Shown here: piece by piece, positions 6,970 through 28,428 of the stretch | How positions within the stretch are numbered: the stretch's first letter is position 1 | Layout: every line of letters begins with the position of its first letter | Origin: a virus | Length of the DNA stretch: 28,428 bases | IMG/VR virus record: IMGVR_UViG_3300021957_006857 | Span: 1-28,428 of that record | Direction: 5' to 3' (one strand) | Translations under genes and position numbers: made by a program | The notes under the pieces: model-generated | Told to the model about the DNA's origin: nothing | Database searches by the model: none | What the model saw: the letters and a program-made list of their open reading frames with translations, nothing else

Positions 6970-7599
6970 ATGAAAGTAAACCTAGTTTGGATTACCCCCG
7001 AAGCCATGAAAGTCATCGCCTATTGTGCGAGAGTTAGTAATCCTGCAAATCAAGACAATGAGAGAACCGCCCCGAAATTGTTGAAGTACCTTAAAAAAGA
7101 AGCACACTTCAGCCCATTCGAAATGGCGAGCGCTTGCATTGAAATCGAGACTACGAGAGACATTGCTCGCCAGATTCTGCGGCATCGCTCTTTTAGTTTT
7201 CAGGAATTTAGTCAACGCTATGCAGACCCTACTCAAGCATTAGATTTCTCTACGAGAGAAGCGAGACTGCAAGACCCACGTAACCGACAGAATAGTATTC
7301 CTGCGGATAATGATGGGCTAGAAATTGCTTGGCACGCTAAACAGAGAGAAGTAATCGATGCATCTACTGAAGCCTACAAATGGGCTATAAGTATGGGTAT
7401 TGCAAAAGAACAGGCGAGGGCAGTATTGCCCGAGGGTAACACTCATTCTCGATTATATATGACTGGTACACTTCGTTCGTGGATGCACTTCTGCGACCTA
7501 CGAGGTGGGAACGGCACTCAAAAAGAGTGTTCAGAAATTGCAGTAGCCTGCAAAGAGATTCTCTGCCAAAACGGTGGAGACGTCTGGGGAGACTCATGA
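6970..7599 (+). CDS. thyX: FAD-dependent thymidylate synthase ThyX
   Basis: 209 residues, near the usual 220-250. The ThyX signature RHRxxxxxxxSxR is present as RHRSFSFQEFSQR at residues 71-83, and the C-terminal substrate region EQARAVLPEGNTHSRLYMTG is also typical. The enzyme makes dTMP from dUMP using FAD, NADPH and methylene-tetrahydrofolate. Phages carry it to raise thymidine supply for replication. It is the first gene of a long plus-strand operon with a MazG-like gene and the lysis genes. The ATG at 6970 is well placed behind AGAGGAG. Confidence 0.93.
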   Translation: MKVNLVWITPEAMKVIAYCARVSNPANQDNERTAPKLLKYLKKEAHFSPFEMASACIEIETTRDIARQILRHRSFSFQEFSQRYADPTQALDFSTREARLQDPRNRQNSIPADNDGLEIAWHAKQREVIDASTEAYKWAISMGIAKEQARAVLPEGNTHSRLYMTGTLRSWMHFCDLRGGNGTQKECSEIAVACKEILCQNGGDVWGDS

Positions 7600-11283: not shown

Positions 11284-11661
11284 GTGTCGTATAGCGAACA
11301 GGTTATGGATCACTACGAAAACCCTCGGAATGTGGGAAAACTCGACAAAGATTCCCAGACTGTTGGCACGGGCTTAGTGGGTGCGCCTTCGTGCGGTGAC
11401 GTAATGGTTCTACAGATAGACGTAAAAGATAATATTATCTTAGACGCTAAATTTAAAACTTATGGGTGTGGAAGCGCTATTGCTTCCAGCTCACTGTTAA
11501 GTGAGTGGGTAAAGGGTAAGAGTTTAGAAGAAGCTGGTATGATAAAAAATACTGACTTAGCTAATGAACTTGCACTCCCACCTGTTAAAATTCATTGTAG
11601 TGTACTAGCAGAAGATGCTATAAAAGCTGCGATAAAGGATTACAAAGAGAAGCAAGTATGA
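11284..11661 (+). CDS. iscU: Iron-sulfur cluster scaffold protein IscU
   Basis: 125 residues, full length for IscU. All ligands and partner sites are kept: C37 and D39 in GAPSCGDVM, C62 in FKTYGCGSAIASSS, H104/C105 in IHC, and the LPPVK site bound by the chaperone HscA. The sequence is very close to gammaproteobacterial IscU as I remember it (MAYSEKVIDHYENPRN.. in E. coli). It starts with GTG directly after the upstream stop. Host IscU assembles [2Fe-2S] clusters with IscS. No iscS, iscA or hscA lies nearby, so the phage copy would have to use host partners. It is packed between phage genes, so it is not a stray host fragment. Confidence 0.95.
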   Translation: MSYSEQVMDHYENPRNVGKLDKDSQTVGTGLVGAPSCGDVMVLQIDVKDNIILDAKFKTYGCGSAIASSSLLSEWVKGKSLEEAGMIKNTDLANELALPPVKIHCSVLAEDAIKAAIKDYKEKQV

Positions 11662-22627: not shown

Positions 22628-22936
22628 TTAGCTCGGGAGAGCTGCGAGCAGCGCTCGGAGTGAGCCAGCATCGGCTTTGTCCAACCCCGCCAGGGCTTCT
22701 GGGTCTGCGCCTGAAGCGTCTGCGATGAGTCGCACAATGTCCGCCTTGGTAATGCGAGGCCCGGACGCTGATTTTACAACTTCTTTGGGCGTGTAGGCTA
22801 AGCCAAGGTTTTTAACTTTTGAAATCACACTGCGTACAGAGAGGCCGTGCAGGTCGGCAAAAGCCGTAGCGGTCTCATAAGTAAAAGAGCCAGTGGAAGT
22901 CATGTCGAATACCATCTTGTCGGTGTAAGCTGTCAT
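22628..22936 (-). CDS. HTH-like small regulator (paralogue family)
   Basis: 102 residues from the ATG at 22936 behind GAGGA. Residues 25-50 include TAFADLHGLSVRSVISKVKN, an HTH recognition segment, followed by LGLAYTPKEVV, then PRITKADIVRLIADASGADP and a leucine-rich end. It is almost the same design and in parts the same sequence as the protein at 25662-25967. It is a single-gene unit with its own promoter and terminator, which suggests a highly expressed regulator or nucleoid-type protein. GC-rich compared with earlier genes. Confidence 0.7.
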   Translation of the reverse strand: MTAYTDKMVFDMTSTGSFTYETATAFADLHGLSVRSVISKVKNLGLAYTPKEVVKSASGPRITKADIVRLIADASGADPEALAGLDKADAGSLRALLAALPS

Positions 22937-22981
22937 ATAATTTTCCTCAAATTGTTTGTTATTGTTTGTCTTGATGGGGTA

Positions 22982-23010
22982 ATTATACGGGCCCGTGGCT
23001 GGGATGTCAA
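22982..23010 (-). promoter_or_regulatory. sigma70 promoter
   Basis: TTGACA (23005-23010) and TATAAT (22982-22987), 17-base spacer, minus strand. Divergent from the tandem plus-strand promoters at 23068 and 23192. Confidence 0.85.
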
Positions 23011-23067
23011 CAACTTTCTTGGTGGAAGACCAAAGAAAGTTTTTCACATGGAGGAGGTAAAAAAGAC

Positions 23068-23096
23068 TTGACATGCCATCACTTTGGCACTATAAT
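23068..23096 (+). promoter_or_regulatory. sigma70 promoter, repeat unit A
   Basis: TTGACA (23068-23073) and TATAAT (23091-23096), 17-base spacer containing ATCACTTTGGCAC. No gene follows in the usual distance. Confidence 0.8.
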
Positions 23097-23463: not shown

Positions 23464-23637
23464 TCATCCGTATTGAATGAAGGCGGCCAGCGATATAAGG
23501 CATAATGCGCAGAATGATATTACGATAAAAGTGTAGACATAAAATACCATATAGAACCCCGAACCCCTAAGCTTGTCCCGAACGATTTTCATTTCTCTAT
23601 CAGTTGCAAGCCTTCTAACGTCAATCGTATTTTTCAT
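23464..23637 (-). CDS. Small membrane protein
   Basis: 57 residues. A charged N-terminal half (RRLATDREMKIVRDKLRG) and a transmembrane helix at about 29-53 (MVFYVYTFIVISFCALCLIS). ATG at 23637 overlaps the PPK2 stop (TAATG). Last gene of the operon, ending just beside parS site 2. Confidence 0.55.
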   Translation of the reverse strand: MKNTIDVRRLATDREMKIVRDKLRGSGFYMVFYVYTFIVISFCALCLISLAAFIQYG

Positions 23638-24251
23638 TATTTTTCTCCTAATGCGAATATTAATTCTCGTAAAAAATTCTCAATACCAGTTTTTTTATTA
23701 TTGTAATCTACATGGATCCATTCGTCATCGATGCAACCATTTTTAAGCGTGGTCATCTCGTCATAGTAGGAAAGTGCGCGTTCATCATTAGGCGAAAATT
23801 TCCAGTATGTCAATGGCGACTTTTTGCGCTTTTCTATTCGCCGGTGCTGTTCAGCTTCAGTAATCGAAAGCCACATTTTTATCATGGTGACATTCTGGTC
23901 ACGTTCCCAGATTTTGTGCGATTTGATAAAATTGTCGTATTGCTTAGGTGAGCACCAGCCATTCAAGCGCTGAACCATTGCGCGAGAATACCAAGAACGG
24001 TCATAAAAAACAATCTGATTCCCGCGTGGCATTTTATGCGACCAATAAGAAAGCCAATTTTTCATGGTGCGCTTGCTAGGCTTTTTGCTCAAATGAACAG
24101 AAAAGCGATTCATAGGCAGATAATGCGTAGCCTCGCGAATCGTGCTGGATTTTCCGGCAGTGTCGCGCCCTTCTAACAGGACCGCGACCGGTCCTGTTAG
24201 CCCTTCGACAATCTCGTTTAACTCAGCTTGTAAAGTCTCAATCTGATTCAT
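23637..24251 (-). CDS. ppk2: Polyphosphate kinase 2 (PPK2)-like
   Basis: 204 residues from the ATG at 24251. The Walker A region EGRDTAGKSSTIRE (27-40), the lid/Walker B element FYDRSWYSRAMVQRLNGWC (82-100) and RRIEKRKKSPLTYWKFSP are typical of PPK2. PPK2 transfers phosphate between polyphosphate and nucleotides, mostly phosphorylating GDP/ADP or NMPs. It is slightly shorter than bacterial PPK2 (about 230-300). It sits with a DnaQ-like exonuclease and a HAD protein, so a role in nucleotide supply during infection is likely. GGAG precedes the start at a longer spacing. Confidence 0.85.
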   Translation of the reverse strand: MNQIETLQAELNEIVEGLTGPVAVLLEGRDTAGKSSTIREATHYLPMNRFSVHLSKKPSKRTMKNWLSYWSHKMPRGNQIVFYDRSWYSRAMVQRLNGWCSPKQYDNFIKSHKIWERDQNVTMIKMWLSITEAEQHRRIEKRKKSPLTYWKFSPNDERALSYYDEMTTLKNGCIDDEWIHVDYNNKKTGIENFLRELIFALGEK

Positions 24252-24256
24252 TATTG

Positions 24257-24364
24257 TTAAGCTCCAATGATTAAGTAGATAATGCCACATATTAACAGAA
24301 AGTCGGCGGTAATGGAATAGGCAATATAAAGTTTAAAAGCAAGTGCTAAAATTTTCGTTCTCAT
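24257..24364 (-). CDS. Small membrane protein
   Basis: 35 residues, nearly all hydrophobic after MRTK (ILALAFKLYIAYSITA, then DFLLICGIIYLIIGA). ATGA overlap with the exonuclease stop; the PPK2 ATG follows six bases after its TAA. Confidence 0.5.
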   Translation of the reverse strand: MRTKILALAFKLYIAYSITADFLLICGIIYLIIGA

Positions 24365-25478: not shown

Positions 25479-25665
25479 AAGAAAATCCTAATATTGAAAT
25501 GAGGTTTAAGCATACCAGATTTATTGTCCGGTTGCAAATGGCCTGTATCGTTAAGAGTCCAAGCCCTACAATTGCCAGCGCCTTACCCGCTGGGCTGTCT
25601 ATGATGAATGGGGCGCAGCTCATACAAGCCGCGCCAATCCAACCGCTGAAGGCCGCAACCTTCAC
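25462..25665 (-). CDS. Small two-helix membrane protein
   Basis: 67 residues from a GTG at 25665 that overlaps the upstream stop (GTGA). Two hydrophobic segments: AAFSGWIGAACMSCAPFII and LVCLNLISILGFSYALYI, with AIVGLGLLTIQAICNRTINL between. This NR-x-x-NL-x-x-LN-x-x-S type occurs in several phages without assigned role. Confidence 0.6.
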   Translation of the reverse strand: MKVAAFSGWIGAACMSCAPFIIDSPAGKALAIVGLGLLTIQAICNRTINLVCLNLISILGFSYALYI

Positions 25666-25967
25666 GCGATATGCTCAAGCAAAGTGCGAAGCGCCTTAGC
25701 GTCAGCTTTATCAAGGCCGCGAATTGACTCAACATCTAGCGCCATAGCGCGGGCGATAGCGTCAACCAAATCAGCTTTGGTGATACGCGGGCCAGCAGTT
25801 GAAACGACTTTAGCCTTGGGCGTGTAGGAAATACCAAGGTGCTTGACCTTGGATATAACCGAGCGAACGCTGAGGCCGTGAGCCGAAGCGAAAGCAGAGG
25901 CAGAATCATAATCGAAAGAATCTTGCGATTGCATTTCTGCGAGAATAACCGGAGTATAATTTGACAT
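25662..25967 (-). CDS. HTH-like small regulator (paralogue family)
   Basis: 101 residues from the ATG at 25967 behind AAGGAAA. SAFASAHGLSVRSVISKVKH is almost identical to the HTH segment of the 22628-22936 protein; PRITKADLVDAIARAMAL and LRTLLEHIA form the shared C-terminal module. First gene of the HAD-exonuclease-PPK2 operon, so it may regulate it. Confidence 0.7.
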   Translation of the reverse strand: MSNYTPVILAEMQSQDSFDYDSASAFASAHGLSVRSVISKVKHLGISYTPKAKVVSTAGPRITKADLVDAIARAMALDVESIRGLDKADAKALRTLLEHIA

Positions 25968-26010
25968 ATTTTTAGTTTCCTTTAGTGTAATGCTTGATTG
26001 CATGGGTAGG

Positions 26011-26038
26011 ATTTTACAGGTTTTTCTGTAAATGTCCA
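26011..26038 (-). promoter_or_regulatory. Probable promoter, weaker type
   Basis: TGGACA (26033-26038) and TAAAAT (26011-26016) with a 16-base spacer, minus strand. GGATTTTACAG over the -10 box is shared with the promoter at 26414-26442. Confidence 0.55.
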
Positions 26039-26075
26039 GTCTTTTTATATACCGAAATAGCATAACGATATGCGC

Positions 26076-26493: not shown

Positions 26494-26827
26494 ATAACAA
26501 AAAGTTCTAGCATCTCTTAAGCATAGACCGTGCCAACTTTTTGCAACATCATTATGAATGATGGTAGGCGGGGGCGGTTATAAGACCCAGTGATAATGGT
26601 CACGCGCAAACCCCCTTTCACGTACAACTTTAAGAATTTTATAAGCAAAAAAGGTGCTATAACAAGCTGTACCTACAAAGCGGCTCAACACGACCAAAAA
26701 TACTTCTTGACATTTTTAATTTTTTCAATTATAATAACATTCTTGAGAAAAGATGAATTTTCCCAAATCCTCAAACATAAACCCACAAACCAAAGAAAGG
26801 CGAAAGCCTGTAATAAAAGGAGTTACT
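26494..26827. other. Gene-free region upstream of the receptor
   Basis: Holds an inverted repeat, CATCATT ATG AATGATG (26547-26563), a consensus promoter and the receptor leader. A 37-codon GTG frame on the minus strand (26578-26691) has hydrophobic character but no ribosome site, and is not called. Confidence 0.5.
26707..26735 (+). promoter_or_regulatory. sigma70 promoter for the TonB-dependent receptor
   Basis: TTGACA (26707-26712) and TATAAT (26730-26735), 17-base spacer. The leader is about 87 bases and holds an AGGC GAAA GCCT hairpin (26798-26809) before AAAAGGAG. Confidence 0.85.
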
Positions 26828-28428
26828 ATGTTAAGAAAGGCAATCCCGCTATTGCTACTAAGTTGTTCATCGTTCGCCGAGATGGAAGAAGTCGTCGTCA
26901 AAGGAGATCTCGGATCACTTCCCGGCGAACGCGTAGAATCCGTCTTCGGCTTTGAGAAATCTATTCTAGACACACCCCGAAGCGCTTCAACAATCTCCGA
27001 AGAAATGATGGACCGTTTCAATATGCAGGATATCGACGAACTCGTTGTTCTAGCACCTGGAACCTTCACACAATCGTTCTTCGGTGTAGCAGGCTCACTC
27101 GACGTACGTGGTACTGCCGGTGAGACATACTTTCGAGGTATTCGACGCCTTGATAACCCAGGCAACTATCCAACCCCGATTGGAGCCTCCGACCGAGTAG
27201 ATATCGTTCGCGGCCCCGCATCCCCTATTATGGGCCCTAGTAAGATCGGTGGTTACCTCAACTTCAATCCCAAGTCCGCTCGCATCGAAGAGACAGGTTC
27301 TTATATTCCAGAGCGTATCGGAGAGATTTCCTACTCTGGTGGAAGCTGGGATCGTAATGTCCTTACTGCCGAAGTTGGTGGCCCTGCAGCAATCAGTGGA
27401 AAGCCTGTTGGCTACTATCTCTATGGAGAAGTTGAACATTCTGGTAGCTTCTACACAAATGCCCCCGGTGTGAATCAATCACTCGTTCAAGCATCGTTTG
27501 ATATGGACTTTAGCGACAATGTACGAATTCAGTTCGGTGGTATGCTTCACGACTATCAGGGTAGCCAAAACGCTGGCTGGAATCGTTTGACTCAAGACCT
27601 CATTGACACAGGTACTTATATCACCGGTACTCCTACTCCTCTTGATACTAGCGGCGATGGCTTCATCTCTCACGATGAGTACTATGCAGGCAATATCAAT
27701 CCTTTTGCTCTCTATGCCTTCTTTGGCCAGCAGAACCTTGATCTTGCCGGTCTGTCAGATGCTTCGTTCGGTTATGACTACTCTTCGTCCAATATGGCCC
27801 TAGAGAACGTTGGAACTGCTATTCTGCCCATGTCTTCTACACTTATTGCTGCGGATGATACCTTAGAGAATAAAGTGGCAACTCTGTACTTCGACGTTGA
27901 TGTTGCTCTTGGCGAGTGGACTTTGACGAATAAGTTATTCTACGAAAGCTATGAGAACCTGAATGAGAATGCTTATGGCTTCTCTCAGTTTCATGACGCA
28001 TCGGTAGTAGAGGATCAGTTGATTCTGTCCCGTGTCTTTGATGGCTCATCAATGACGACTTCTGTTTCGATCTCTCCTTCAATTCGACGAACTGAGTTTA
28101 CTCACGGGGATGACTATTATAACGAATACTTTAGCCGACGTGACTTGACGGGGCCTTCAACGGCTCTTGATAGAAGACTACTGGCAACTCGAAGTGGAAG
28201 CGACTATAGCGAATATTATGTTGGGGATTATACTGACCTGGGTTTCGGGGTAATGGCAGACTTTGCACATGCTTCGGGGCTATCACTTCTTCTAGGTGCA
28301 CGTTATGATGTAATCGATATGACAAGTACAACTCCTGAAGGCTTCACACAATCAGACTCAGCTTTCACATCTTCGGAAGGTGGAGTGGACGTTTCTGTAA
28401 ATACTGCTACGGCTGAGCCTAGCGGTGT
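26828..28428 (+). CDS. TonB-dependent outer-membrane receptor (partial)
   Basis: 533 codons present; the barrel continues past the window end. Signal peptide MLRKAIPLLLLSCSSFA (1-17) is followed directly by MEEVVVKGD, a TonB-box-like segment. The plug (about 30-160) shows ISEEMMDRFNMQDIDELVVL, DVRGTAGETYFRGIRRLDNP and SDRVDIVRGPASPIMGPSKI, the classical plug motifs. The barrel follows with alternating strands and loops; LDTSGDGFISHDEY has an EF-hand-like loop (D273-E284). These receptors import siderophore-iron, B12 or glycans using TonB. Genes of this kind are rare in phages. It has its own consensus promoter; no classical Fur box was recognised. Confidence 0.93.
   Translation, partial: MLRKAIPLLLLSCSSFAEMEEVVVKGDLGSLPGERVESVFGFEKSILDTPRSASTISEEMMDRFNMQDIDELVVLAPGTFTQSFFGVAGSLDVRGTAGETYFRGIRRLDNPGNYPTPIGASDRVDIVRGPASPIMGPSKIGGYLNFNPKSARIEETGSYIPERIGEISYSGGSWDRNVLTAEVGGPAAISGKPVGYYLYGEVEHSGSFYTNAPGVNQSLVQASFDMDFSDNVRIQFGGMLHDYQGSQNAGWNRLTQDLIDTGTYITGTPTPLDTSGDGFISHDEYYAGNINPFALYAFFGQQNLDLAGLSDASFGYDYSSSNMALENVGTAILPMSSTLIAADDTLENKVATLYFDVDVALGEWTLTNKLFYESYENLNENAYGFSQFHDASVVEDQLILSRVFDGSSMTTSVSISPSIRRTEFTHGDDYYNEYFSRRDLTGPSTALDRRLLATRSGSDYSEYYVGDYTDLGFGVMADFAHASGLSLLLGARYDVIDMTSTTPEGFTQSDSAFTSSEGGVDVSVNTATAEPSG

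Follow-up and report, generated by a model that had tools for sequence, protein, structure and literature searches.

Phages are usually assumed to build their DNA from host nucleic acid and by de novo synthesis. What use could a phage make of a gene for a TonB-dependent receptor (TBDR)? Such a gene lies at the right end of a 28,428-base IMG/VR record (IMGVR_UViG_3300021957_006857), called here the window, meaning the whole stretch of DNA that was analysed. We propose, with a probability of about 0.7, that its product imports purine compounds, driven by TonB, to supply phage DNA synthesis.

A host-derived receptor gene inside viral genomes

The features of the window used below are:

1079-1525, 22628-23074 and 25662-26063: three related small proteins, paralogous by eye
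6970..7599, + strand: ThyX thymidylate synthase (PF02511, E 1.8e-41)
11284-11661: IscU/NifU-N scaffold protein (PF01592, E 1.6e-49)
23637..24290, - strand: PPK2, polyphosphate:nucleotide phosphotransferase family (PF03976, E 2.3e-36)
26707..26735, + strand: sigma-70 promoter of the receptor gene, TTGACA-N17-TATAAT, 12/12 match with a 17-base spacer
26828..28428, + strand: TBDR, 5' 533 codons, truncated at the contig end
26828..26878, + strand: putative signal peptide MLRKAIPLLLLSCSSFA, 17 residues, of typical sequence as judged by eye
26885..26899, + strand: TonB-box-like EEVVV, recognised by eye
26966..27253, + strand: plug domain PF07715 (Pfam)

From the ATG at 26828, with AGGAG just 5' of it, the frame runs open to the end of the window with zero stops. 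The plug domain reaches 44.1 bits against a Pfam cut-off of 23.9 (E 3.3e-11). It is preceded by the TonB-box variants EEVVV or EEIVV, conserved by eye among 41 phage and host proteins; around them, most positions from E20 to G26 are invariant or at least 90% kept. The G+C content of the receptor gene is 0.475, compared with 0.41 in the remaining window and 0.504 in the cellular gene of locus L027. Across the window, 13 perfect TTGACA-N17-TATAAT sites occur on both strands, a very regular set for the host RNA polymerase.

Relatives of the receptor are encoded on at least 25 marine and estuarine viral contigs found in a viral scan; L082 is a further carrier, as are L088 and L089, with receptor fragments at contig edges. 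Viral scans used short exact peptide patterns, so the number of carriers is undercounted; the viral scan widened with a phage-plus-host alignment added zero carriers. Annotated phage records hold just three weak matches to this family (TBDR-A), and the Acinetobacter 'phage' records among them may be bacterial DNA. Intact phage receptors measure 800-816 aa and form two groups. Group 1 (L002-L010, L023, L025, L026) is 88-98% identical to the window or to L003; group 2 (L011-L022, L024, L082) is about 60% identical. Among group-1 contigs that extend upstream of the receptor, 7/7 keep its promoter (window, L002, L003, L006, L007, L008, L026). The sequence-only reading had claimed a phage-encoded, promoter-driven TBDR, and the full-length relatives, the plug and the promoter match bear it out.

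Two outcomes that could have undone that claim, an interruption downstream and an assembly join near 26.5 kb, were tested. Genes of 800-805 aa are intact in L002, L003, L006 and L007. L002 and L026 span 26.5 kb with the same gene order, the flanking genes being mostly 89-98% identical, and L002-L008 run on rightward past the receptor into more phage genes. Intact relatives with phage genes to the left and to the right recur in many contigs, so we reject both an assembly join and a host fragment: the receptor is a host-derived gene inside viral genomes, with viral genes on either side. This is the genomic setting of a virus auxiliary metabolic gene, its expression and its effect on uptake in infection being predicted.

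In group 1 these genes are T5-like. Left of the receptor, L002, L006, L007, L008 and L026 carry the same genes as the window, namely PPK2 and the exonuclease-like and HAD-like ORFs (the latter two by eye). Right of it lie tail-fibre and chaperone genes, the small and large terminase subunits, the portal and the head protease. The large terminase subunit (TerL), with at least 80 related loci, is 49% identical to that of T5-like phages (Demerecviridae).

Several other genes of this region deserve mention. PPK2 relatives occur in 15 of 50,697 phage records, all below 60% identity, several of them megaphages. In most group-1 phages, a small protein of about 107-112 aa, 80-98% identical, directly follows the receptor on its 3' side:

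L003:2803-3126 and L006:11231-11569: small protein after the receptor, group 1

Its signal-like N-terminus and ...RYTF end suggest, by eye, a small outer-membrane barrel; a 42% relative lies just 5' of the receptor in L007 and L008. Among the three small paralogues of the window, two share the core 'GLSVRSVISKVK' and all three a 'RISKA/RITKA' stretch. The iscU gene noticed in the first reading is confirmed by its Pfam match; of the 11 genomes searched, nine from TBDR-A hosts and two from hosts of TBDR-B (a family introduced below), 10 encode an IscU 74-77% identical to its product, and phage C48C1 encodes one at 80%. The gene tells little about the receptor's substrate. The bfd gene named alongside it has no Pfam match at 1e-3.

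Group 2 is a podovirus-like lineage, in which the receptor is the last gene of an nrdA-nrdB operon. In L016 it shares a strand with NrdA (PHROG 84, E 7.6e-175) and NrdB (PHROG 86, E 1.1e-87), which lie on its 5' side; a tail-fibre gene is oriented in the opposite direction, towards it. Six group-2 loci were examined with their upstream genes (L011, L012, L014, L016, L018, L021); in each, the nearest ORF listed upstream is a same-strand gene of 319-323 aa. In L017, L018 and L021, NrdB is followed by a 51-codon ORF that overlaps the receptor's start codon, and a TAATG overlap is seen by eye at the receptor start in L012, L014 and L016. Group-2 NrdA is 65% identical to pelagiphage NrdA.

Separate captures, selection and fold

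A quick IQ-TREE search on 66 proteins places group 1 among proteins from Pseudomonadales MAGs (L027-L032, L039, L045, L066). Group 2 falls elsewhere, beside L055-L059, L068, L069 and L071. An AU test on 57 rows, 19 of them phage (L061 and rows below 700 aa excluded), rejects a single phage clade with p-AU 1.3e-177 and with it, within the limits of the test, one capture followed by divergence; orthologous receptors were therefore captured at least twice. The T5-like and podovirus-like lineages apparently acquired them separately. A candidate third capture, L061 (Rhodobiaceae MAG NAT146, PAAM01000024.1), was discarded: at 99.66% identity to phage L021 over 11,198 bases, it is on sequence grounds a phage contig binned into an alphaproteobacterial MAG.

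The receptor is old in the phages and strongly maintained, under strong purifying selection. In nine phage pairs dN/dS is 0.033-0.067, with synonymous sites near saturation in many pairs; between phages and hosts, saturation of the synonymous distances precluded such a ratio. Among 31 host proteins, 238 alignment columns do not vary; 234 of them are unchanged in five group-1 proteins and 227 in five group-2 proteins. When group 1 is set against the hosts nearest to it, identity is 0.956 in the plug, 0.897 in the extracellular loops, 0.829 in the strands and 0.634 in the periplasmic turns, the loop and strand borders being approximate, as taken from an AlphaFold2 model.

That model, of the L003 protein, was computed from 41 aligned phage and host proteins (pTM 0.69, mean pLDDT 61, with the plug poorly modelled). 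It has 22 barrel strands by our own count from the DSSP list, and the protein ends in ...YRF, with an aromatic final residue as in TBDRs. By its plug, its TonB box and the modelled 22-stranded barrel, the product belongs to the TonB-dependent transporters, transport itself being predicted. The long third extracellular loop contains an EF-hand-like calcium loop, DTSGDGFISHDE (L003 residues ~273-284, pattern found by eye), largely retained in hosts and phages.

The best Foldseek matches in the PDB are TBDRs (PiuD, PiuA, FhuA and others, E 2.3e-24). As these nearest folds are siderophore receptors, and the weak family matches are siderophore and heme receptor models, import of iron as siderophore or heme was weighed as a substrate. 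Such likeness of fold is general among TBDRs, and PqqU stands in the same match list. Against the curated NCBIfam models for siderophore, heme and B12 receptors, P0001 and P0002 stay far below all cut-offs, the best match being that of P0002 with 123.8 bits where 223.5 are needed. The host neighbourhood, moreover, is one of purine metabolism, not of iron. An iron substrate is not supported by these data, and we hold it to be very improbable.

A purine locus in cells and a second receptor family

A genome scan with the phage-protein alignment returned 48 loci, or 46 after removal of L061 (phage) and L074 (a distant match). The nearest cellular genes, 83-88% identical to group 1, come from uncultured Pseudomonadales, host names being those of the MAG titles. 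At the core of locus L027, the TBDR is flanked on one side by an adenosine deaminase (PF00962) that is exported, judging by eye from its signal sequence, and on the other by NUP, a 'purine nucleoside permease' (PF06516). Around them are found two PF00860 nucleobase permeases, a phosphoribosyltransferase, a second adenosine deaminase, urate oxidase, a polysaccharide-deacetylase-fold protein, which we take to be PuuE-like, an allantoicase-repeat protein and ureidoglycolate lyase.

This linkage persists across lineages despite differing gene order. Where at least 3 kb are available on both sides of the TBDR (26/46 loci), the deaminase lies within 4.5 kb of it in 23/26, NUP in 22/26, both in 21/26 and neither in 2/26. 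Counting all 46 loci, many of them cut short, at least one of the two is present in 40; the others are L050, L052, L054, L060, L063 and L064, of which L060 and L064 are distant homologues with full flanks and without purine neighbours. Nine host genomes hold at least 15-28 Plug matches each against one or two NUP genes; as they were picked because their loci showed the linkage, these counts show the rarity of NUP and are not an independent test of the linkage. A second NUP gene, about 20 kb from the purine locus, is present in several host genomes; in G003 and G004 a Plug match, among the matches listed, lies no more than some 3 kb from it. The suggestion, made from the sequence, that the receptor raises iron or nutrient uptake is thus supported in kind, with purines as the indicated nutrient, and not supported for iron: the orthologues sit in a purine locus and the siderophore, heme and B12 cut-offs are unreached.

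We also examined what follows nrdB in other phages. Relatives of NrdB number at least 80, of which 37 have enough DNA for their downstream genes to be examined. Two are TBDR-A contigs already known (L166 is the L021 contig, L196 the L016 contig). The slot is filled otherwise in several more:

L168:8118-10388: second receptor, TBDR-B, 756 aa, at +152 behind nrdB, as TBDR-A (PF00593 and PF07715)
L167:1751-2335 and L175:8103-8690: TorF-type putative porins (PF09694, TIGR02001); a third such porin, L007:11634-12206, lies beside the TBDR in group 1

In addition, L181 encodes a 2OG-Fe(II) oxygenase, and L235 a protein that resembles it by eye. The remaining 30/37 have no plus-strand gene longer than 104 aa behind nrdB.

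TBDR-B, present on four contigs, gives only short low-identity matches to TBDR-A; in annotated phage records, no match to it exceeds 26% identity over most of its length. A search of 293 genomes from G001's order gave nine cellular homologues at 1e-100 or better. The six closest, 51-52% identical, all directly adjoin their genome's only PF00860 permease (6/6), and three of the six also adjoin a phosphoribosyltransferase 57% identical to the one in the TBDR-A locus. The other three, at about 41-43% identity, have no adjoining nucleobase permease. That one phage slot holds receptors of two unrelated families, each with a purine neighbourhood of the same kind in cells, is the strongest argument for purine uptake.

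Purines could also be imported for nitrogen, carbon or energy through ureide catabolism, more than for phage nucleotide synthesis. The urate oxidase, allantoicase-repeat protein and ureidoglycolate lyase of the host locus are in line with this, as is a urease operon adjoining TBDR-B in L257. The coupling of the group-2 receptor to ribonucleotide reductase points to nucleotides instead, and so do ThyX and PPK2 in the group-1 window; we regard ureide catabolism as quite improbable.

TorF-type putative porins occur in both phage groups, beside or instead of a TBDR; in L007 this is the single gene between the receptor and the terminase small subunit. They have no homologue at 1e-15 in the 293 genomes. 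A broader proposal, which we rate at slightly less than an even chance, is that of an interchangeable cassette of host purine importers (two TBDR families, perhaps TorF-type porins) tied to phage nucleotide metabolism in several marine lineages, by which infected cells would scavenge nucleosides from lysed neighbours and so supply viral DNA synthesis across the outer membrane.

Tail fibres, the proposed route and known systems

Gene neighbourhood is indirect evidence for purine import, and both phage lineages have tail-fibre genes near the receptor. The phage might instead add a copy of its own or a rival's entry receptor, or of an outer-membrane protein that competes with that receptor, for receptor exchange or superinfection exclusion. 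The position in group 1 favours such a role: oad (receptor-binding protein) and llp (exclusion lipoprotein) occupy the corresponding spot in T5, immediately ahead of the terminase genes. T5-like phages enter through TBDRs, T5 itself through FhuA, which it blocks with Llp (PMC9586334). The receptor and the tail fibres nevertheless evolve separately. Between L023 and L006, identity is 91-98% in the fibre genes and 88% in the TBDRs, whereas between L023 and L003 it is 98.5% in the TBDRs, and the fibre genes are at 29-43% or do not match. A decoy could do without conservation of the plug and the TonB box, which are among the best-kept parts, and exchange or exclusion does not predict a purine link in each of two unrelated families of receptor. 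The conserved plug, TonB box and loops, together with the uncoupling from the fibres, disfavour the replacement of a lost receptor and the exclusion of competitors, both raised by the sequence-only reading; we deem this family of explanations unlikely.

Two related candidates were set aside. The product is not of the T5 Llp/Cor exclusion lipoprotein class, being a TBDR of about 800 aa and not a small lipoprotein. The 643-aa fibre protein of L003, considered as a pb5-type receptor-binding protein, has no match to T5 pb5.

Purine import for phage DNA synthesis, our preferred reading, would proceed as follows. The phage would have acquired the receptor gene from its own bacterial host. In infected cells, the gene would be transcribed from the strong phage promoter in group 1, or at the end of the nrdA-nrdB operon in group 2. 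The receptor would enter the host outer membrane, where host TonB and the proton gradient would draw purines into the periplasm; we infer that the substrate is either purine nucleosides or a larger purine-containing compound. The host's exported adenosine deaminase and NUP would process these in the periplasm, and host nucleobase permeases and phosphoribosyltransferase would then supply purine nucleotides for phage DNA. Among the annotated phage genes, a subset of all genes, none encodes another purine-salvage enzyme of the host locus.

If this is true, some marine infections are limited by external purines, and virus production is tied to dissolved nucleosides released by lysis. The substrate becomes testable because orthologues were captured separately and an unrelated receptor sharing their genomic link has taken their place. 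The work also offers a lead on function for an uncharacterised clade of cellular TBDRs.

A phage-borne TBDR as such has already been reported. The marine megaphage Mar_Mega_1 likewise has one in its genome, a putative SusC-like TBDR proposed to raise uptake in infection (PMC9723777). The carbohydrate substrate proposed there relies on annotation, and we set that receptor apart by its description. Unlike it, the receptors described here have orthologues in a purine locus, two captures, a place in a ribonucleotide reductase operon, replacement by a second family that is also purine-linked, and smaller contigs, not of megaphages, as carriers. A literature search covering few subscription papers found no purine-linked phage TBDR, nor separate captures, coupling to ribonucleotide reductase or a replaceable slot.

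The cellular Pseudomonadales TBDR (L027:7971-10421) is orthologous, with the same plug, TonB box and loops. In contrast, the phage copy stands alone, without adenosine deaminase or NUP, under a phage promoter or operon and with a different signal peptide. T5 llp/oad and FhuA offer a comparable position upstream of the terminase genes and involve a TBDR; there, however, a small lipoprotein jams the host's TBDR, and the T5 region examined encodes none. Finally, Lc of phage PA-2 is a phage-encoded porin tied to receptor replacement in lysogens. It is likewise a phage-borne outer-membrane channel protein, whereas the linkage here is to purine uptake and nucleotide synthesis.
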